Of a stretch of 20,954 nucleotides of DNA, positions 4,700-20,954 are shown in pieces (the stretch's first letter is position 1; each line of letters opens with the position of its first letter). The DNA is from a virus: the IMG/VR virus record IMGVR_UViG_3300049846_001905, positions 1-20,954 of that record. One strand, given 5' to 3'. The notes beneath the pieces are model-generated. The model saw nothing but the letters and a program-made list of their open reading frames with translations, had not been told where the DNA came from and ran no database searches. Both the position numbers and the translations under genes were made by a program.

Positions 4700-5695
4700 G
4701 TGAAAGTATTACTAATTGGCGATCCTCACCTAAAAGCTTCCGCTCTTAAGCAAGTCGAAATCTTCTTAGACTGGCTGCAGTCCCTTATCATCTCCACTCA
4801 GCCAGACATCATCGTAAACCTTGGCGATACGTTTCATACACATAACGTGGTTCGCTCCGAAGTGATGTCTTTCGTAGATCGCCACATTCGCTGGCTCGTC
4901 ACGCATTACAACGGCACTGCCTACATACTTGTAGGAAACCACGATATGGCCCACCATACCAACTCGGAAGTGCACGCTTGGATTCCGTATAAAGCTATGT
5001 ACGAAGGCGTGGTTATCGTTGATAGACCGATGAGCGTGAACGGTAAGTTTAGCTTGTTGCCGTACATTGACGACGTCTCTTCGTTTGACACTCACCTTCA
5101 AGCCGCGATGCTCTCTACTCCCTTAATTTTTTGCCATCAAACCTTCAAGAACGCTAACCTTGGCTTCACTCTAACGAAAGAGGGTGCTGTAGTACCCGAG
5201 AATTATAGCGGCCAAATCATCTCTGGTCACATTCATACAGCCCAAGATTTGGGTTGCGTGTGGTATCCCGGCACTGCGTACGCTCAGGAAGCCGCTGACC
5301 ACGATCAAGTCAAAGGCATTTACGTGTACAACTCTGAGACGCGAGGGCGAACTTTCTTTCGCTCTCCACTCCCTCAGTGGATGACGTACAGGTCAACCCC
5401 CGCGAACGTAGAGGCAGTTATCCGCCTTATGAACAAAGATGATAAAAATCACTTAGTTATAGAAGGACCTGGAACAGAGGTTAACGCTGTGGTAGACAGT
5501 CGACTATTTAAAGCTCTTAAGCAAGAGTATGGGTTTACAGTGAAGAAGTCTGCCACTCACGCCATCAAGTCGTCTAATAGCTTAAAGAAAGTGCACTCAA
5601 TGGAATCAGCTGTTGTAGAATACATTGACAAGATCTATGACGGTTCTGTAGATCGTGAGAAACTTAAAGAGAAGTGTCTACTTTCTCTTAAATAA
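4700..5695 (+). CDS. SbcD/Mre11/gp47-like metallophosphoesterase nuclease
   Basis: Probable nuclease subunit of an SbcCD/gp46-gp47-type DNA end-processing complex. All calcineurin-like phosphoesterase motifs are visible: GDPHL with D8 and H10, GDTFHTH with D43, GNHD at 79-82, H146 in CHQTF, and SGHIH at 175-179. Length, 331 aa, matches T4 gp47 (339). Residues beyond about 225 form the capping/ATPase-partner region. Start is GTG 4700, preceded by AAGGA (4688-4692) at 7 nt. In T4 the ATPase partner gp46 lies beside gp47; no gp46/SbcC gene is present in this window, so it must lie elsewhere or come from the host. It would act with the upstream recombinase and SSB. Confidence 0.9.
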   Translation: MKVLLIGDPHLKASALKQVEIFLDWLQSLIISTQPDIIVNLGDTFHTHNVVRSEVMSFVDRHIRWLVTHYNGTAYILVGNHDMAHHTNSEVHAWIPYKAMYEGVVIVDRPMSVNGKFSLLPYIDDVSSFDTHLQAAMLSTPLIFCHQTFKNANLGFTLTKEGAVVPENYSGQIISGHIHTAQDLGCVWYPGTAYAQEAADHDQVKGIYVYNSETRGRTFFRSPLPQWMTYRSTPANVEAVIRLMNKDDKNHLVIEGPGTEVNAVVDSRLFKALKQEYGFTVKKSATHAIKSSNSLKKVHSMESAVVEYIDKIYDGSVDREKLKEKCLLSLK

Positions 5696-5706
5696 AGAGG
5701 TTCAAG

Positions 5707-6489
5707 ATGAAACTGTTGGTATCTGCGTTTTTAATTATGTTATGTATGCTATCCAAGACTGCGTCAGCTGTTGTAGAGCGAGGTAAGCTAGATGTTATTG
5801 AGATGACTAGCAAAAATGTAATTATTCTTCAAGATCAAGTGACGGAATCGTCGGTAAGTAGCGTGATTTCGCAGCTTATGCAGACAGAGAGTGAAGACAT
5901 CGTCTTGTATATTAACTCTCCTGGTGGTGAGGTTATCGCTGGTAGTAAGCTTATTAACGCGATGTACGCTTCAGGAAAGAACATTGTATGTGTAGCTGAT
6001 TTTGCGGTCTCAATGGCTTTTTCTATATTTCAAGCATGCCCTGTTAGGTATATCGTCCCATCGTCTATTTTAATGCAGCACCAGATATCATACGGCGTGA
6101 GAGGTAGCTCCGAACAAATTCAAGTGCAGGTGCAATTTTCGGAAACTATAGCTAAAACTTTGAATAACTTAGACGCTGCCAGGCTGAAGATTCACCCAGA
6201 CACTTTGCAAAGATACATTCAGAAGGAGTGGTGGCTGTACGATGAACAGATTTTGCAACACAACGCTGCAGACAAGATGATTTTGGTAAAGTGCTCCGCA
6301 GAGCTCACGAAAAGTACTCGTAAAGAAATTGTTGAAACTATTTTTGGTGAAGTAGAGGTGACTTGGAGTGGATGTCCACTGATATTACAGGCTTTACAGG
6401 TGAAAATACCTGAGGCTGGTAAAGAAAAAATGACCGATCTAATAGAGCAGATTTCAAATAAAAATTGGAAAAATCGACGTTATGAATGA
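5707..6489 (+). CDS. ClpP-fold serine protease with predicted signal peptide
   Basis: ClpP/crotonase-fold serine peptidase (S14/S49-like). YINSPGGEVIAGS (residues 68-80) is the oxyanion-loop signature; ADFAVSMAF places the nucleophile at S102; SSILMQHQISYG places the histidine at H125. The third triad residue is unclear: the segment KEWWLYDEQ aligns with the usual D-x-W/F-sAeEA region and appears to carry Glu instead of Asp. Residues 1-21 look like a signal peptide: K2, a hydrophobic core, then TASA followed by V22, a good signal-peptidase-I site. The mature protein would be periplasmic or membrane-associated, which is unusual for a phage ClpP homologue; head-maturation ClpP-like proteases are cytoplasmic. 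The gene sits upstream of the terminase, and a separate prohead protease is encoded at 18465. The substrate is unknown. Confidence 0.82.
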   Translation: MKLLVSAFLIMLCMLSKTASAVVERGKLDVIEMTSKNVIILQDQVTESSVSSVISQLMQTESEDIVLYINSPGGEVIAGSKLINAMYASGKNIVCVADFAVSMAFSIFQACPVRYIVPSSILMQHQISYGVRGSSEQIQVQVQFSETIAKTLNNLDAARLKIHPDTLQRYIQKEWWLYDEQILQHNAADKMILVKCSAELTKSTRKEIVETIFGEVEVTWSGCPLILQALQVKIPEAGKEKMTDLIEQISNKNWKNRRYE

Positions 6490-6940
6490 GAATGATTTTA
6501 GAGCTGCATCAGATGACGTATGGTTAATGAACTTAGGGTATATCACTGAACACAGTGAGCAAAATCTTATGTTATATGGACACCTTGCGGCACCTGGTGT
6601 ACAGCACGTTGAGCTGATGCTTGATTCTAAGAAGTTAGAAATTCACTACGCCATCTTCCTCAACGCTAAAAGTTACCGATGGTATAAGCTTCAGAGATAC
6701 TTGAGTTCTAAAGATGGACTACTGAGTAAGTTAATGTTATTCTTAGTGTTACGATCCGTTGGGTCGTACGACCCTGAAAGTCGACTCAAGCGGTGTGTCA
6801 CAGACTACGCCGGTCCTGTATGGAGAGTTTTTACTGAGGTTATCAATGTCAAGCAATACCTCAAAATCACTAGTGGCGGTAGAGCCGAAGGTTGGGTTTT
6901 CAAAGACCGACCTCGTGAAAATTCAGGAATACCAAGATAA
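6482..6940 (+). CDS. Hypothetical protein (152 aa)
   Basis: I do not recognise a family. ATG 6482 overlaps the stop of the ClpP-like gene by 8 nt, which suggests translational coupling. The protein has an N-terminal alpha/beta part (HVELMLDSKKLEIHYAIF) and a helical middle (about residues 62-95, with a short hydrophobic run LMLFLVLRSV that is too short for a confident membrane helix). The C-terminus overlaps the next gene in another frame for 95 nt. That long overlap suggests either that the last ~30 residues are under constraint from both frames or that one boundary has shifted recently. No catalytic motif is visible. Confidence 0.68.
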   Translation: MNENDFRAASDDVWLMNLGYITEHSEQNLMLYGHLAAPGVQHVELMLDSKKLEIHYAIFLNAKSYRWYKLQRYLSSKDGLLSKLMLFLVLRSVGSYDPESRLKRCVTDYAGPVWRVFTEVINVKQYLKITSGGRAEGWVFKDRPRENSGIPR

Positions 6941-7520
6941 GCAAGGTCCTGTACCTCTGCCGCCTCAGGTTTCCGAAAAGATATTCGAGACGTACGTGAA
7001 CGGTTCATCCCTGGCTGAAGTTTGTAAATTTTACAACGAGTATAGCCCAGGGATGATTATTTTTACTGCTTACCACTACAACTGGCCAGCTATTCGAGAT
7101 GAAATATCGCTCGATCTTCAAACTAGAGTGAAGCAGAAGGTGTTGTACTCTAAGTATCAACAGCTTGAACTGGTTAGCACCATGATTCAAGTCGCTCATG
7201 TTGAAACTATGCAAGCCATGCAGCTTTACTTAAAAAATCCTAACGATAAAAACTTACCAAAAACTTTGCGAATTAAATCCCTTAAAGACTTGCAGATGGC
7301 TATAGAGATGATGTCTCAAGTAATTGGCCAAGATAACTCGAAAAATATCTCAATTACCGGTAACATCAACACAACTACTACAGAAGAGCCAGCGAAGCAG
7401 TCAGGAAATATACAGGAAGTTCTAACAGAAGCGACAGCTAAATCTCTCTTGAAGGCGATGAATCAAAAGGGAAAAGCTGAGGCAGAGGTAGTAGAGGGGG
7501 TTGAGGTCACTCCACAATGA
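6846..7520 (+). CDS. Probable terminase small subunit
   Basis: Likely DNA-recognition subunit of the packaging motor; the assignment rests mainly on its place directly before the large terminase, whose ATG overlaps its TGA (7517-7520). ATG 6846 has GAGG at 6836-6839 with 6-nt spacing; the frame is open further up to 6759 but the upstream ATG lacks a site and enlarges the overlap. The 224-residue protein has an N-terminal helical region with a possible HTH (SSLAEVCKFYNEYSPGMI, then a second helix), a central long helical region suited to oligomerisation, and a C-terminal Thr/Lys/Glu-rich tail. The order DNA-binding, oligomerisation, flexible tail is normal for TerS proteins. I see no specific sequence signature, so a different packaging factor remains possible. 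Confidence 0.66.
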   Translation: MSSNTSKSLVAVEPKVGFSKTDLVKIQEYQDKQGPVPLPPQVSEKIFETYVNGSSLAEVCKFYNEYSPGMIIFTAYHYNWPAIRDEISLDLQTRVKQKVLYSKYQQLELVSTMIQVAHVETMQAMQLYLKNPNDKNLPKTLRIKSLKDLQMAIEMMSQVIGQDNSKNISITGNINTTTTEEPAKQSGNIQEVLTEATAKSLLKAMNQKGKAEAEVVEGVEVTPQ

Positions 7521-9424
7521 AGCGAAGGAAGAATAAGACTAAAATAGCGTCGACAGCGAACAACCACTTGACCCCTGAGCAGTTGAGGCAAGTATTTTTT
7601 GCCCAATGCTTAGACAGAGACCACTTATACGAGTGGATTAAGTTGTTCTGGAACGTAAACCTACCCGGCAAGACAGTGTCTCGATACTCTTCAAGTAACC
7701 CACTGGACTCAGTTTGGAAGGTTTACAATCATTGCGTACACCTCAAAAAAGGTATGGATATTCTATACATAGCTCCACGTGGTGGCGGTAAAACACTCGG
7801 GGTAGCTATAGCAGAGTCTGCCTTGATGTTTCATGATAAGCGCGGCGTTGTTCACGTGGGAGCTATCGAGAAGCAAGCGAAACGAGCGTACACGTACTTT
7901 CAGAACTTTATTGCTAAAAATAAAGATATGCTAGCTCCGCTAGTAGACAAAGACACTATCGAGAAGACCGTGCTCGTCGTCGATAACGAGCAAGTGTCGC
8001 TAGAGTGTTTGCCGTGCACTATGGCTGCTCTTAACGGACCTCACGAAGCTTGCATCGTGATGGACGAACTAGACACCCTATCCCCTGAAGGTCGGTTGGC
8101 ATACAAGCAGATTAACGGAATTCCCGTAAAGCATCGTCTTACAGGAGCTCCACCTGTAAAGATTGGTATTTCTACTCGTAAGTCAGCTTACGGGCTTGTT
8201 CAGCAGCAGATGGACACCGCTCTTGAGCAGGGCCGTCAAGTCGAGATGTGGAACCAAATTGACCTTATGGAACGATGTGAGTCATCTCGTCACGGGACTA
8301 AAGAGGTTGACATATACGTTAACCAAGAGAAGATGCACCACATACCTCACTCTGAGTATGAGAAGCTCGCTGACAACAAGAAGCAAGACTACGTGTTACA
8401 TCGAGGTACTGATGGCTGCTTGAAGTGTCCGCTTTTCTCAGTTTGTTTAGGGGACGCGAAAAACCAAGACCCTAAGATGACTGCCGCAGCGTCGACGATG
8501 ATCGCGACGATTGACGACGTGATTCGCAAAGTAAAATCCGCTGACGCAGATTGGGTATTAGCAGAGCTGATGTGCATGAAGCCTTCTGTTGAAGGTATTG
8601 TGTTCAAGGAGTTTGATAAAACTCGTCACGTAGTCAATTACAACTACATGTGGCAAGTACTGACCAAAGAGGCTCCCACTACTATAATCGACGAAGATAC
8701 GTTTGTGCGTGAGCTTCATCGAAGAAAAATTCCTATATACGCTGGTATTGACTGGGGATGGGCAGCACCGTCGACGATCACCGTCGCCGCCGTTGATCCA
8801 GAGGATAACGTTTACGTGCTGCGCTCGTTTGGTGTAACGAAGACGAACGATCCCACTTTCATTCACATGATAAAAGTTAAGTTTCATAAGTATTACCGTG
8901 TTCAGATGTACTACCCTGATAACGCTAACGGATCTGGTATCGACTTAATGAAAACGGCTGGCTTACCGGTCGCGAAGGTTGATAAGTCAGAAAACTTAGG
9001 TGTTCAAGTTATTAAACGGTTACTTAACGTTCCAGGTACGGCTGATATAAAGATCTTTTTAGCTGAAGGGGCTTGTGATCAGCTCGTCTACGAGATGGAG
9101 CGTTATCACTACGAGAAAGACGCCTCTGGAGCGACCATCGATGGACGCTTCGCCGCTGAGTATGACCACGCTATCGACTGCTTACGGTACATGCTAGTGG
9201 CTGTTATGGGCAAGGCTCGCTTCGTTATCTCGCATGACATGCTGGGTATCACTGCAGCGGAGTCTCCGCTACACTCCGCTGACGGCGCTTATTTGCGGGC
9301 GCCTAACTTTTATGAGCTAGCGAAAGAGCATCGAATTCCAGTACATACGCCAGAAGCTAAGCCGTTTAACCAGTCGGACGACGACCGAGATGACGGTCCA
9401 GACGGCTTCCTTTGGTCATTTTAA
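7517..9424 (+). CDS. terL: Terminase large subunit (ATPase/nuclease)
   Basis: DNA-packaging motor ATPase and headful/genome-end nuclease. Walker A is APRGGGKT (residues 86-93), Walker B is CIVMDE (179-184) with the catalytic D-E pair, and a GISTRK segment after it resembles the coupling motif. The C-terminal RNase H-like nuclease shows the expected acidic triad: GIDWG, then YPDNAN, then EYDHAIDCLRY. Between the ATPase and nuclease lies an insertion with four cysteines, C254-X46-C301-X2-C304-X5-C310, which looks like a metal or Fe-S site. Length, 635 aa, is at the upper end for TerL, consistent with this insertion. The C-terminus is acidic and disordered. Start ATG overlaps the upstream stop. 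Confidence 0.95.
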   Translation: MKRRKNKTKIASTANNHLTPEQLRQVFFAQCLDRDHLYEWIKLFWNVNLPGKTVSRYSSSNPLDSVWKVYNHCVHLKKGMDILYIAPRGGGKTLGVAIAESALMFHDKRGVVHVGAIEKQAKRAYTYFQNFIAKNKDMLAPLVDKDTIEKTVLVVDNEQVSLECLPCTMAALNGPHEACIVMDELDTLSPEGRLAYKQINGIPVKHRLTGAPPVKIGISTRKSAYGLVQQQMDTALEQGRQVEMWNQIDLMERCESSRHGTKEVDIYVNQEKMHHIPHSEYEKLADNKKQDYVLHRGTDGCLKCPLFSVCLGDAKNQDPKMTAAASTMIATIDDVIRKVKSADADWVLAELMCMKPSVEGIVFKEFDKTRHVVNYNYMWQVLTKEAPTTIIDEDTFVRELHRRKIPIYAGIDWGWAAPSTITVAAVDPEDNVYVLRSFGVTKTNDPTFIHMIKVKFHKYYRVQMYYPDNANGSGIDLMKTAGLPVAKVDKSENLGVQVIKRLLNVPGTADIKIFLAEGACDQLVYEMERYHYEKDASGATIDGRFAAEYDHAIDCLRYMLVAVMGKARFVISHDMLGITAAESPLHSADGAYLRAPNFYELAKEHRIPVHTPEAKPFNQSDDDRDDGPDGFLWSF

Positions 9425-12266: not shown

Positions 12267-14138
12267 ATGCCACTCGATTCGGGAAGTCGTCTGTTAAGTG
12301 ATTTGGTATTTGTTAGAACGTACGCGGATACGCTTCCCGATGGAACGAAGGAGCGAGTGGAGCAGACAGTAGAACGCGCTTCTGCTATGCATCAGTTAAA
12401 ATTTCCTAAGTGGTCAGACGAGATTCGCCGAGCGTTTGACTTTGTGCATAATCGAAAAATTGTACCATCAATGCGTTCAATGCAGTTCGCTGGTTACGCT
12501 ATTGAGCGCTCAAATATTCGCATGTATAACTGCGCATTTTTGCCAATCGAGTCATTTAAAGATATAGCGGACGCCACTTTTATTTCCATGAACGGATCTG
12601 GGGTGGGGTACTCTGTTCAGAGGCATCACGTGGAGCAGCTTCCTGTAATCTCTCTTGATGCTACTGACGTCGCTGTGTTCAAGATCCAAGATAGTAAAGA
12701 ATCTTGGGCGGACAGTATTCACCTACTTCTTCATAATCCTTGTCAAATGTTCGACTACTCGCTAATTCGCCCAAAGGGAGCTCCACTTTCGACTGGCGGA
12801 ACTGCGTCAGGTCCTGAAAGTTTGTGCGCCTTGCACACTCGTATAAGAGATATCTTGATTGAAGCCTCTGGACGCAAGCTGAGACCGATTGAAGTACATG
12901 ATATCATGTGCCATATAGGAGATCTAGTGTTTTGTGGAGGAGTGCGCCGCACAGCTTTGATAGCTTTATTCGATCACGATGATTTCGAGATGTTAACATG
13001 TAAACTCGGCGAGTGGTGGAGCGCTAATCCGCAACGTCAGCGCGCGAACAACTCAGCTGTCATTTATAGAAATGACCCTGATGTTCAACTTAAAATGAAG
13101 AGAGTGCTAGATATGTGCTTTGCCAGCAACGCTGGAGAACCTGGCATTTTTATGACAAATCACCCAGATTGGGGAGCTAATCCTTGTGTAGAAATCGCTC
13201 TTCGCCCCCGTCAGTTTTGTAACTTAACGGAAGTGAACGCCGCTGGCTGTACTTCTAAGGAAGACTTTCTAGAGGCAGTTCAAGCTGCTACTATTATCGG
13301 CACTCTTCAAGCGACTTACACTGATTTTCACTACATTGATCCTCGCTGGAAGGCGAACTGCGAAGCTGACGCTTTATTGGGAGTATCTATTACTGGTCAG
13401 GCTATGGCTCAACATTTCTTGACTCCTGAAATCCAAAGAGAGGCGGCGGCTTTGATGTTAGAAGTTAACGCTCTGTGGGCTAGTCGCTTAGGAATCAACC
13501 CTGCTGCGCGAATTGGTTGCACTAAGCCTTCAGGGTCTACTTCGGCGTGGCTTACTACCACCTCTGGAGTGCACGCAGCTCACTCAGAGTACTACTTACG
13601 CCGAGTGAGAGTCGATAAGACGGCTAATAAGCCAATTGTATCGTACTTAACCGATATATTTGGTCTGGGTGAACCTGGCTCTGGATCGGTAGTGGAGAGA
13701 GACGCCTTTAGCAATGATGTAGTAGTAGTGACCGTTCCTCTATCAACTAAAGGTGCTATTCAGCGAGAAAAGGAAACCGCAATAGAGCTAATGAATAGAG
13801 CTAAGTCTATCTACGATCATTGGATTAGTAGCTCGCATCGTAGCGGAGACAATAAGCACAACGTCAGTTTAACTGTATCTTACAAGCCAGATGAGGTCGA
13901 AGCTATCACTCATTGGATAATCGAGCATAGAGATAGTTTCACCGGTGTGAGCTTGTTGCCATTCGATGGAGGTACGTACACCCAAACTCCTTTCGAGTCA
14001 ATTACAGAGGAGCAATATAACGAATGGATTACTCGTTATCCATCCGGTATTGATTTATTTTCATTGAATTATGCCGGAATAGGTGACGCAAGAAAGGGAG
14101 AGCTGGCTTGCGCCGGTGGAGCCTGCGAAATTTATTAA
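12267..14138 (+). CDS. nrdJ: Adenosylcobalamin-dependent (class II) ribonucleotide reductase
   Basis: Reduces ribonucleotides to deoxyribonucleotides for phage DNA synthesis, using a thiyl radical generated from adenosylcobalamin. It resembles the monomeric Lactobacillus leichmannii RTPR. The five functional cysteines are present: C89 (MYNCAF), C307 in NPCVE, C318 in QFCNL at the same 11-residue spacing as C408/C419 of RTPR, and the tail pair C615-X4-C620 (CAGGAC) for thioredoxin re-reduction. CTKPSGSTS is the conserved barrel loop. Length, 623 aa, is about 115 shorter than RTPR (739), so some peripheral regions are reduced. ATG 12267 has AGGAG at 12255-12259. It is separated from upstream by a hairpin and from downstream by a strong terminator, so it behaves as its own unit. 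No cobalamin riboswitch is seen upstream. Confidence 0.93.
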   Translation: MPLDSGSRLLSDLVFVRTYADTLPDGTKERVEQTVERASAMHQLKFPKWSDEIRRAFDFVHNRKIVPSMRSMQFAGYAIERSNIRMYNCAFLPIESFKDIADATFISMNGSGVGYSVQRHHVEQLPVISLDATDVAVFKIQDSKESWADSIHLLLHNPCQMFDYSLIRPKGAPLSTGGTASGPESLCALHTRIRDILIEASGRKLRPIEVHDIMCHIGDLVFCGGVRRTALIALFDHDDFEMLTCKLGEWWSANPQRQRANNSAVIYRNDPDVQLKMKRVLDMCFASNAGEPGIFMTNHPDWGANPCVEIALRPRQFCNLTEVNAAGCTSKEDFLEAVQAATIIGTLQATYTDFHYIDPRWKANCEADALLGVSITGQAMAQHFLTPEIQREAAALMLEVNALWASRLGINPAARIGCTKPSGSTSAWLTTTSGVHAAHSEYYLRRVRVDKTANKPIVSYLTDIFGLGEPGSGSVVERDAFSNDVVVVTVPLSTKGAIQREKETAIELMNRAKSIYDHWISSSHRSGDNKHNVSLTVSYKPDEVEAITHWIIEHRDSFTGVSLLPFDGGTYTQTPFESITEEQYNEWITRYPSGIDLFSLNYAGIGDARKGELACAGGACEIY

Positions 14139-18464: not shown

Positions 18465-19334
18465 ATGCAAGAACTACGTAAAGGTCTAATCATAGATGGT
18501 ATTGCCGCGACTGACGCTATAGACTCGCAAGGTGAACGCTTATCTATTGAAGGAGCCGACATCTCTGCTCTAGAGCAAGGCCTGGGTCGCATCAATGACA
18601 ACCATGGTAAGCAGTTCGTCCACTCCATTGGTAGAGTGTTAGGCGCAAAAAAAATAATGAAAGCAGAGGATTGCGAAGACGATCGCCAGAAAATGTACTG
18701 GGAAAAAGTTAAGAAGCCATACATTTACACTAAAGCTGAGCTGTACGACGACGCTGAGCACCCAAACGCCAAAGCCGCTGCAGCTATCATGAAGTCACTA
18801 CATAAACAAAACGCCCCTCTATCTGTAAAGATGTCAGTAGAGGGCGCTGTTCTAGCTAGAAAAGACGGAGGAGTGCTAGATCGAACGAAAGTGCACTCCG
18901 TCGCTTTAACTTTTATGCCAGCTAACAAGCAAACTTTAGCGATGCCGGTTAGCTTCGAGAAGTCAGACTTAAACGTAAACGTAAACTGGGAAGCTCTAGT
19001 TAAGAGTGTTGCTGTGCTTCCAGACGCCCCCTCGTTCATTGAACGAAACGGCGTTGAATCCAAGATGATAGACGCGACGACGCAAGTCGTTGAGATTTTA
19101 CGTCGTGTTACAGAACTTAAGAAAGCGTTATCAGCAGGTTACGGTTCAGCTGGACCAGCTCAGGGGATGACTGGCGGAGCGGTACTCATAATGCCTAGCG
19201 TTGACAAGATGTACACTAGCTGTCCAGAGTGTGGTAAAAAGCAAGTCGTGCGCCGCCTTCAAGTGAAGTGTGATCACTGCGGAGCTGGCTGGACTATGGA
19301 TAAGGTGGCGAAGCACTTTTTGGGCAGTCATTAA
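18465..19334 (+). CDS. Prohead maturation protease with C-terminal zinc ribbon
   Basis: Probable serine protease that processes scaffold and capsid during head maturation. The N-terminal ~160 residues fit the herpes-assemblin-like phage fold: GLIIDGIAATDAIDSQGERLS as the opening strands, H47 in NDNHGKQFVHSIGRV as the catalytic His candidate, and PLSVKMSVEGAVL with S120 or S124 as nucleophile, then VHSVALTFMPAN. Residues 219-246 carry a Gly/Ala motif shared with the capsid protein N-terminus (see findings). The C-terminus is a zinc ribbon: C253-X2-C256 and C269-X2-C272. Order protease, 161-aa protein, scaffold, capsid is the expected one. ATG 18465 is 9 nt after AGGA. The exact catalytic Ser is uncertain. 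Confidence 0.85.
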   Translation: MQELRKGLIIDGIAATDAIDSQGERLSIEGADISALEQGLGRINDNHGKQFVHSIGRVLGAKKIMKAEDCEDDRQKMYWEKVKKPYIYTKAELYDDAEHPNAKAAAAIMKSLHKQNAPLSVKMSVEGAVLARKDGGVLDRTKVHSVALTFMPANKQTLAMPVSFEKSDLNVNVNWEALVKSVAVLPDAPSFIERNGVESKMIDATTQVVEILRRVTELKKALSAGYGSAGPAQGMTGGAVLIMPSVDKMYTSCPECGKKQVVRRLQVKCDHCGAGWTMDKVAKHFLGSH

Positions 19335-19352
19335 CTATTTAGCTCACTATGA

Positions 19353-19410
19353 TGGTATACTATTTCAGTGATACGCGATTTGAGTTGTTTTTTGCTCGAA
19401 TCATGCGCTG
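19353..19410 (+). promoter_or_regulatory. Extended -10 promoter and structured leader upstream of the 161-aa gene
   Basis: TGG immediately before TATACT (19353-19361) forms an extended -10 (TGnTATACT); no good -35 is seen. Downstream, GATTTGAG (19377-19384) can pair with CTCGAATC (19395-19402) with one G-T pair, and CGC/GCG flank it, giving a stem around a T-rich loop. The rest of the 118-nt gap is A-rich and ends with AAAAGGG (19437-19443) before ATG 19453. This head gene probably has its own transcript. Confidence 0.5.
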
Positions 19411-19452
19411 GAAGAGATCGGACAAATAAAATCTCGAAAAGGGTAAAAGAAC

Positions 19453-19938
19453 ATGGCAAACAATGGTCAACAAAAACGAATCGCGGACAAGCTGAAGAGA
19501 AACCTTGATCAGGTCCTTCGGCAACTTGATGGTCTCACCGTTAACCATACTGTTAACGCTGCTGGCGACCACCTAGTTGAAGTAACTGATCCAAGCTGGG
19601 CAACTACTGACACGTACGCCTTGATTAAAATTCAAGAGTTACCCGTGATTGGCGACTACTCAGTCGTTGGTTATCCAGTTCATAAGATGATGATCTGCGT
19701 AGAAGGTGACAACGCCACCCTCGGATCTGTTAAGGGATCTGCTATTGACGTTGGCTACCTCGCTGAGATCATCGGCCGGGTTAAAGACCTTGGCTGCGGC
19801 ATCGAACTCTACGTCACTGCTCTTGGTACGAAGCCTGCCGATCAAGCGACTTCAGGTGGAACTTTTAACTCTGGTTCAGCTTCCGCTTTGAAACGCTTTA
19901 TTCGCGCTTCCGTCGACACCATCGGCTTTGGTCAATAA
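19453..19938 (+). CDS. Hypothetical head-module protein (161 aa)
   Basis: I do not recognise a family. It sits between the prohead protease and the scaffold, with its own promoter-like leader, so a virion or head-assembly role (for example decoration) is reasonable but inferred. Residues ~6-28 form a basic helix (KRIADKLKRNLDQVLRQLDG); the rest is alpha/beta with strands (HLVEVTDP, TYALIKIQELPVIG, MMICVEG) and a Gly/Ser/Ala-rich segment before the C-terminal helix (ALKRFIRASVDTIGFGQ). There are no membrane or signal segments. ATG 19453 follows AAAAGGG. Confidence 0.78.
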   Translation: MANNGQQKRIADKLKRNLDQVLRQLDGLTVNHTVNAAGDHLVEVTDPSWATTDTYALIKIQELPVIGDYSVVGYPVHKMMICVEGDNATLGSVKGSAIDVGYLAEIIGRVKDLGCGIELYVTALGTKPADQATSGGTFNSGSASALKRFIRASVDTIGFGQ

Positions 19939-19967
19939 TCACTCGTTAAGGAATAAAGGGCTAACAT

Positions 19968-20744
19968 ATGAATGAAGAGCTGCTTAAGTCCCTTAACGGG
20001 GCGATCGAACTTGCGATCCAGCAAATGGTCGAAGTTGACCAACTAGCTAAAGGCGACGTTTCTTTGCAAGACGCGAAATTGCGACCTGAGTCTGCCAACG
20101 GTTCTCTACCCGGTGATACCCGCGAAGACTCCACTTTGAAACCTGAAGACGCAAACAAAGCCGAGCACGCTGATAAGGGCGACCTTAAAATCATGCACGA
20201 CGACGGTTGCGACGACGATAAGAAAGCGAAAAAAGGTGAAAATCCTTTCGCTGATAAAGACGGCAAAAAGGATAGTAAAAAAGACGACGATGATGATGAC
20301 GATGACGAGGATGACATGGATGACGACAAGGCTGAAAAAATGAAAGCCAAAATTAAGAAGTATGAAGACGAAAAAGCAGCTAAAACCGCTAACATGACGA
20401 AGTCGGCTGCGATTGACTCTGAAGAACTCAAAAAATCTATCGTCACCCAAGTGGCTGATACTTTAGAGAAAAGCTTTGGCGAAAGGCTTACTCAGCTTGA
20501 AGGCTTAATCAATAAGCTCGTTCAAACTCCTCAACCTCGCCAGTCTGTGTCTGGCTTAGCTCCTCTAGTTAAGAACGATGGAGACGCAGGCGCAACCTCA
20601 TCTCAACTCAGCAAGAGCGAAGCGCTCGACAAGCTGCTTGAGATGCAAAAGAACCAAGACAAACGAGTTGATTCTTCAGTAATCGCTCGAGTCGAAATGA
20701 ATGATTTTTCAGTTCTGGCAGAACGAAACATTAACCTGAAGTAA
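19968..20744 (+). CDS. Probable capsid scaffolding protein
   Basis: Likely internal scaffold that guides capsid assembly and is removed by the upstream protease. The evidence is position directly before the capsid gene and composition: very high Lys/Asp/Glu, a run of about 8 Asp then more acidic residues around 107-121 (nt 20285-20330), and a long helical/coiled-coil region (about residues 125-185, including EELKKSIVTQVADTLEKSF) with a second helical part near 210-235. Length, 258 aa, is normal for scaffolds. ATG 19968 follows AAGGAATAAAGGG. No enzymatic motif is seen. An alternative is a capsid-associated acidic internal protein. Confidence 0.74.
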   Translation: MNEELLKSLNGAIELAIQQMVEVDQLAKGDVSLQDAKLRPESANGSLPGDTREDSTLKPEDANKAEHADKGDLKIMHDDGCDDDKKAKKGENPFADKDGKKDSKKDDDDDDDDEDDMDDDKAEKMKAKIKKYEDEKAAKTANMTKSAAIDSEELKKSIVTQVADTLEKSFGERLTQLEGLINKLVQTPQPRQSVSGLAPLVKNDGDAGATSSQLSKSEALDKLLEMQKNQDKRVDSSVIARVEMNDFSVLAERNINLK

Positions 20745-20766
20745 CTGAACTTAGAAAGGGTATTAG

Positions 20767-20954
20767 ATGGACGGCAACTTTCTCGAACATGGTCAGGCAC
20801 TCCAGGGTGGCGTGTTTCAAGGCAACCTGACCAACTTAGAAGCAGACCAGCTCAGTAAAGCTCTTACGGCTGGTTACCCGGCTGGTGGAGCTCCTGGCTC
20901 CCTCGTTGGTGGCGCAGTATTGCAGATGGAGTCACTTGAGCATACGCTGAAAAG
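20767..20954 (+). CDS. Major capsid protein, N-terminus, 3' partial
   Basis: The frame from ATG 20767 (ribosome-binding site AAAGGG about 8 nt upstream) is open to the right edge, 62 complete codons. It begins MDGNFLEHGQALQGG and contains a Gly/Ala stretch followed by GGAVLQMESLEHTLK, a form I associate with N-termini of phage capsid proteins, where a 'GGxAL..EsLe.tLK' segment opens the N-arm. Its place after protease and scaffold genes is the standard one. The fold itself lies outside the window, so the call depends on order and this segment. Confidence 0.8.
   Translation, partial: MDGNFLEHGQALQGGVFQGNLTNLEADQLSKALTAGYPAGGAPGSLVGGAVLQMESLEHTLK

Follow-up and report, generated by a model that had tools for sequence, protein, structure and literature searches.

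The tail of the phage prohead protease carries an arm that resembles, and covaries with, the N-terminal arm of the major capsid protein

A segment in the tail of the prohead protease, here called the arm, was found again at the N-terminus of the major capsid protein (MCP) in a 20,954-base virus record (IMG/VR record IMGVR_UViG_3300049846_001905; 'the window' is this whole stretch of DNA) and in the great majority of the related phages that were compared, which make up a large and widespread class. The two arms covary from phage to phage, and the protease therefore probably enters the shell in the guise of a shell subunit. In the reading favoured here, to which a probability of about 0.6 is given, the protease arm would mimic the MCP N-arm and serve as a removable docking tag that brings the protease into the prohead.

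Results

The gene order in the window was protease, scaffold and MCP, which is that of the SPO1/Herelleviridae-type head module except for an additional ORF between protease and scaffold; all four genes are on the plus strand. The prohead (head maturation) protease (289 aa, 18465–19334) was identified by phrog_1028 (E 4.6e-13) as an S78-type prohead serine protease with a core of approximately residues 1–155; the window protease itself gave no Pfam S78 match, and its relatives in SPO1 and 812 scored above cut-off with PF04586 (Peptidase_S78) as well. Putative catalytic residues His47 and Ser124 were invariant in alignments of 24 and 38 sequences. An AF2 model, run with metagenomic relatives, had a pLDDT of mostly 84–97 in the core, for which the best Foldseek matches were T4 gp21 (5jbl, prob 0.96) and PRV pUL26N (4cx8, prob 0.87), in both cases with an E value of only about 5e-3. 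The tail containing the arm had a pLDDT of about 43–61, so that the protease arm is predicted to be flexible on its own, and the model was uninformative on the arm's binding partner. C-terminal to the arm, a zinc-ribbon motif CPEC...CDHC (residues 253–272, 19221–19280) matched Pfam Zn_ribbon_3 at E 1.7e-4, which is under the curated cut-off.

The intervening ORF (161 aa, 19453–19938), to which no function was assigned, matched no PHROG family and gave no convincing Pfam match; a weak homologue (E 4e-5, two-sequence BLAST) is found in the same location in locus L149, and locus L148 has a similarly sized ORF there. The following gene (19968–20744) was taken to encode a scaffold-like, acidic protein of 258 aa on the basis of position and composition. 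The MCP gene (20767–20954) is cut by the contig end after 62 aa; the part available matched phrog_752 weakly (E 0.25 with 62 aa), and the assignment was based on the full MCPs of relatives, which have a similar N-terminus. Myxococcus phage Mx1, the nearest annotated relative of the window, has a full phrog_752 MCP (E 2.7e-40). Elsewhere in the window a ClpP-like protease is encoded at 5707–6489 (Pfam CLP_protease, E 2e-19, with an N-terminal signal peptide apparent by eye), and between the portal and protease genes, at 12267–14138, lies a gene for a ribonucleotide reductase that scored weakly with B12-dependent (class II) models.

The arm was delimited by own-record search and alignment statistics to residues 219–247 of the protease (KKALSAGYGSAGPAQGMTGGAVLIMPSVD, 19119–19205) and residues 30–58 of the MCP (SKALTAGYPAGGAPGSLVGGAVLQMESLE, 20854–20940), and the outer coordinates 19119 and 20940, between which the first-pass annotation had placed a common motif, were correct on re-translation. 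The likeness claimed there was confirmed: LKKALSAGYGSAGPAQGMTGGAVLIMPSVD (protease 218–247) and LSKALTAGYPAGGAPGSLVGGAVLQMESLE (MCP 29–58) were aligned without gaps at 15 of 30 identical positions, and a search of the window protease against its own record returned the MCP arm as the single second match (E 8.4e-4). By local alignment against shuffled proteases the likeness had a P of about 1e-6. The scaffold of the window, which the same annotation had described as free of the motif, indeed lacked the arm when tested for likeness to its own protease (P 0.16). The other scaffolds tested likewise gave no arm beyond two weak scores (Eal132, P 0.02; 812, P 0.05); the LpeD scaffold was outside this test and the site count given below.

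With the window protease as query, Mx1 was the only annotated phage found (35% identical); its arm is unlike that of the window in sequence (KAMEAGNFNAAPSTLQGGSALQSESVD in the protease, KAMEAGNFNAKPSTLVQGSAMQIEDCS in the MCP). An arm common to protease and MCP was detected in SPO1, Twort, 812, A511-like LP-125 and Brochothrix A9, also in Mx1, Thermus Cumys, Bordetella PHB04 and others, so that the phages reached comprise Enterococcus, Lactobacillus and Bacillus herelleviruses as well as phages of Gram-negative hosts (e.g. PHB04). The MCP N-terminus matched the phage's own protease in 24 of 26 annotated phages (P 2e-4 to 1e-14 each). IMG/VR loci were fetched by patterns of the protease core, the arm not being used for selection; 109 of the 110 loci with both genes passed the same test, and in the last (L091) the arm was seen by eye in both proteins once the correct MCP start was used. 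A match in L150 lay in a spurious frame and was excluded. Many of these loci are near-copies and the independent sample is therefore about 23 lineages, which is the number remaining at <60% identity of the protease core. Two of the proteases are giants with about 1000 residues after the arm (L149, 1328 aa, 5395–9378; Mx1, 1239 aa, L003:7974–12876). In L149 the protease tail has a GGDEF diguanylate-cyclase domain (E 7e-15) at its end; in Mx1 it has a weak PI3/PI4-kinase match, and a gene for a GGDEF protein lies two genes downstream of the protease gene.

Within each genome the arm was restricted to two proteins. An arm profile (A2) was built from 9 genomes and searched against whole phage records; it gave exactly two matches, protease and MCP, in each of its source genomes and in 13 of 15 genomes outside its build, so that the arm is general and occupies exactly two sites in almost every genome. 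The two exceptions were Thermus phages, Cumys with a lineage-specific arm in both proteins that was missed by A2, and Lalka27b with a weak protease arm (P 7e-5). A search of 25 whole phage records with the arm profile gave no third arm-bearing protein at E <= 1. The independently made PHROG models cross-matched in the same way in SPO1, in which protease residues 163–206 matched the N-terminus of the MCP family phrog_752 and MCP residues 15–67 matched phrog_1028. By the same likeness test gp21 and gp23 of T4 had no such common arm (P 0.08), nor did HK97 show a comparable likeness of protease and MCP (P 0.02); HK97 was one of four controls, its score falls in the protease core region and it was taken as chance. 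In GenBank MZ501263, MZ501265, ON113167 and ON113168 the protease genes are labelled 'major capsid protein', for which the shared arm is possibly the reason.

The two arms of a phage covaried. Own pairs of protease tail and MCP head scored above all of 200,000 permutations and, in a separate run, above all of 100,000. The own-minus-swapped score was positive in 98% of 253 phage pairs, where an old duplication followed by independent divergence has an expected score of zero; for disjoint nearest pairs, own versus swapped gave P 0.0098 by Wilcoxon test and P 0.11 by plain sign test. In the window, Mx1, Cumys and A9 the own protease/MCP pair outscored any orthologous pair, and in isolated lineages the protease arm was closer to the own MCP arm than to the protease arms of other phages. 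TTGYxHGGTDQ occurs in both proteins of A9 and TAGDPHALD in both proteins of Cumys, and locus L147 has a wholly different arm, missed by the profile in both proteins and yet present in both (KALTTTTPQ...NPGPGGLSAIELQNL and KALGTTSPQ...NPAPGGLGAINSQNL). Chance likeness was ruled out by the own-record search, the shuffling, these permutations and the 110 IMG/VR loci taken together.

The first-pass annotation had further noted that the codons of the two segments differ and had argued against a recent DNA duplication, which was borne out. In the window arms 5 of 14 identical residues (Met and Trp excluded) have the codon in common (5.2 expected), and for identical arm residues of 23 phages the codons agreed 196 times, versus an expectation of 205.9 ± 9.9 based on the codon use of the individual phage. 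Codon sharing is at chance level, so the likeness is kept by selection on the protein and not by DNA conversion; recent duplication or gene conversion was thereby ruled out.

In most phages the arm starts at a predicted scissile bond (the cut is marked by ↓) of the form (hydrophobic)-x-K↓S/A, which is proposed from the sequences as a cleavage consensus for this class of phages. The pattern (hydrophobic)-x-K-(S/A) occurred 156 times in scaffolds versus 36 expected, 128 times in proteases versus 30 and 55 times in MCPs versus 37, that is, sites were enriched about fourfold in the scaffolds and proteases of annotated phages and hardly at all in their MCPs. A solved MCP chain of the 812 type (9row_B) starts at S25 of ...EDVVK↓SFQTGYG, which is the start of the shared segment; judged from the deposited sequence, S25 would be the N-terminus of the mature MCP. 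HK97 gp5, which is cut at K103↓S104 (FNK↓S104), fits the consensus. In the window the MCP is predicted to be cut at K31↓A32 (L-S-K↓A, 20857–20862), which corresponds to the 812-type site, and residues 1–31 would be a propeptide to be removed. The protease is predicted to be cut at K220↓A221 (L-K-K↓A, 19122–19127), at the head of the arm, and perhaps also at K180↓S181 (L-V-K↓S, 19002–19007), after the core; K180 and K220 were invariant in 38 aligned proteases.

Cut site and arm did not always go together. The window scaffold has six (hydrophobic)-x-K-S/A sites without the arm, and since scaffolds in general are full of such sites and lack it, the arm is more than a cleavage site. In the proteases of 3-521, LpeD, Mecenats66 and Cumys an insertion stands between arm core and K-S/A site, so that the two are separable modules. 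The notion of the arm as a mere cleavage site was weakened by both observations.

Three relatives had a protease without the arm. The protease of L148 (4003–4734) ends without arm and without zinc ribbon, although its MCP has an arm that is the best match to that of the window outside the window's own record; a search artefact was ruled out with the arm profile in six frames of the locus and in the whole 11-kb contig. Bacteroides phage DAC16 has a separate scaffold and a protease without arm, and in Chryseobacterium phage MA9V-3 (L009:4892–6490, minus strand) protease and scaffold are fused into one arm-less protein of 532 aa. Relatives with the same protease and no motif, which the first-pass annotation had named as evidence against its proposal, thus exist as a minority; they indicate that the arm is usual and not indispensable.

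Discussion

Three explanations of the shared segment had been offered in the first-pass annotation: a processing site recognised by the protease, auto-cleavage releasing the zinc ribbon, and docking of the protease into the shell by mimicry of the capsid N-arm. As the arm begins at a predicted cleavage site, processing and auto-cleavage are retained as part of the explanation, although not the whole of it given the scaffold sites without arm. Docking by mimicry fits best, because about 25 residues downstream of the site are conserved and covary, are absent from the scaffold sites and are separable from the cut; the arm itself is usual and not obligatory. On this basis the protease arm would take the site of N-arms on neighbouring MCP subunits or on a scaffold that holds N-arms, and a limited number of protease molecules would be built into the prohead during assembly. 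The protease may then cut itself at the (hydrophobic)-x-K↓S/A site before the arm, as in MCP and scaffold, which would free the catalytic domain inside the shell, and the small C-terminal piece with the MCP-like arm may stay with the shell. Against docking, the predicted site precedes the arm and an early self-cut would cost the catalytic domain its anchor. The arm-less proteases of L148 and DAC16 imply that other routes of recruitment must exist, whereas that of MA9V-3, being fused to the scaffold, needs no separate tag and lacks the arm as docking would predict.

Targeting by a C-terminal part of the protease is already known. Duda et al. reportedly found in 2013 that fusions to C-terminal fragments of the HK97 protease are taken into proheads; we know of no report of an MCP-derived segment in the proteases of SPN3US or HK97. 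In herpesviruses (UL26/UL26.5) and lambda (C/Nu3) the protease enters the shell via a sequence common to another assembly protein; there the common part is the scaffold and is encoded by overlapping genes, whereas in the present case the MCP arm is shared, and the two genes encode it separately and with different codons. The fused protease-scaffold of MA9V-3 without arm resembles the herpesvirus and lambda design. Encapsulin cargo-loading peptides are short tail peptides that place enzymes inside an HK97-fold shell, and differ in being neither copies of a shell arm nor protease sites; no membership of that class is claimed for the arm. The C-terminal propeptide of the SPN3US protease gp245 is auto-cleaved and has been proposed to serve prohead targeting (PMC7411985). 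Both gp245 and HK97 gp4 thus resemble the present case in having a segment C-terminal to the catalytic core with a proposed or shown role in prohead entry, and gp245 also in its removal by self-cleavage, as proposed here; SPN3US differs in cutting after a T4-like motif ending in Glu (the MCP after ATE-130) and not after Lys (PMC7411985). The capsid-targeting sequences of T4 internal proteins and Alt are likewise short peptides bounded by a protease site that bring a non-shell protein into the prohead (PMC7411985), but they stand at the N-terminus, are cut off themselves, and no copying of the MCP is known for them. For other phages, the MCP N-arm has been described as resting on the backbone helix or P-domain of the MCP and contacting the scaffold (PMC12749128), so that an arm copy on the protease could occupy such a site. 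No description of an arm shared by protease and MCP was found in the open-access literature; the use of a covarying MCP N-arm copy for targeting is apparently new, the literature search being an indication of novelty and not proof.

As a more tentative possibility, the MCP arm may be a general anchoring tag: after self-cleavage it would keep the C-terminal part of the protease in the shell as a minor capsid component, and in the giant proteases of Mx1 and L149, the latter with its GGDEF domain, it would bring enzyme cargo into virions. Docking itself is supported by the detection of protease in purified virions of Herelleviridae, with 4 peptides and 29.5% coverage in CKA15 (PMC12282133), and also in virions of fRuSau02 (PMC5618024).

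We consider it rather unlikely that the arm is an extended cleavage-recognition sequence, consisting of the scissile bond and about 25 residues on its C-terminal side, that covaries with the specificity of the enzyme. Coevolution of enzyme and substrates would be expected, and both the position of the predicted cut at the start of the arm in most phages and the exact start of the deposited 812-type MCP at the shared segment fit such a sequence; the enriched scaffold sites are nevertheless without arm, insertions separate site and arm core in the four phages named above, and the proteases of T4 and SPN3US need only short motifs. In SPN3US such a short motif precedes each cut (PMC7411985). Still less probable is a built-in inhibitor that lies over the zymogen's own substrate groove and silences the enzyme until assembly. 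The arm resembles a substrate and follows the catalytic core, and prohead proteases stay inactive until assembly, but AF2 places no ordered arm contact (tail pLDDT as above), and L148 and DAC16, whose proteases lack the arm, and MA9V-3 with its fused protease would have an unregulated enzyme. A functionless relic of an old copy between the genes or of occasional gene conversion, although copying would explain the origin of the segment most simply, is largely refuted by chance-level codon sharing, which speaks against recent conversion, and by the closer likeness of own than swapped pairs, which speaks against independent drift after one old duplication.

To our knowledge, except in HK97 and SPN3US it is poorly understood how the correct number of separate protease molecules enters a growing head. 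Covariation of the arm holds over widely diverged phages, among them the models SPO1, Twort and 812, and makes the question open to direct testing. Docking by a copied MCP arm could explain the presence of the protease in Herelleviridae virions and points to a short tag by which proteins might be loaded into such heads, and the (hydrophobic)-x-K↓S/A consensus gives predicted cut sites for the head proteins of the whole class.
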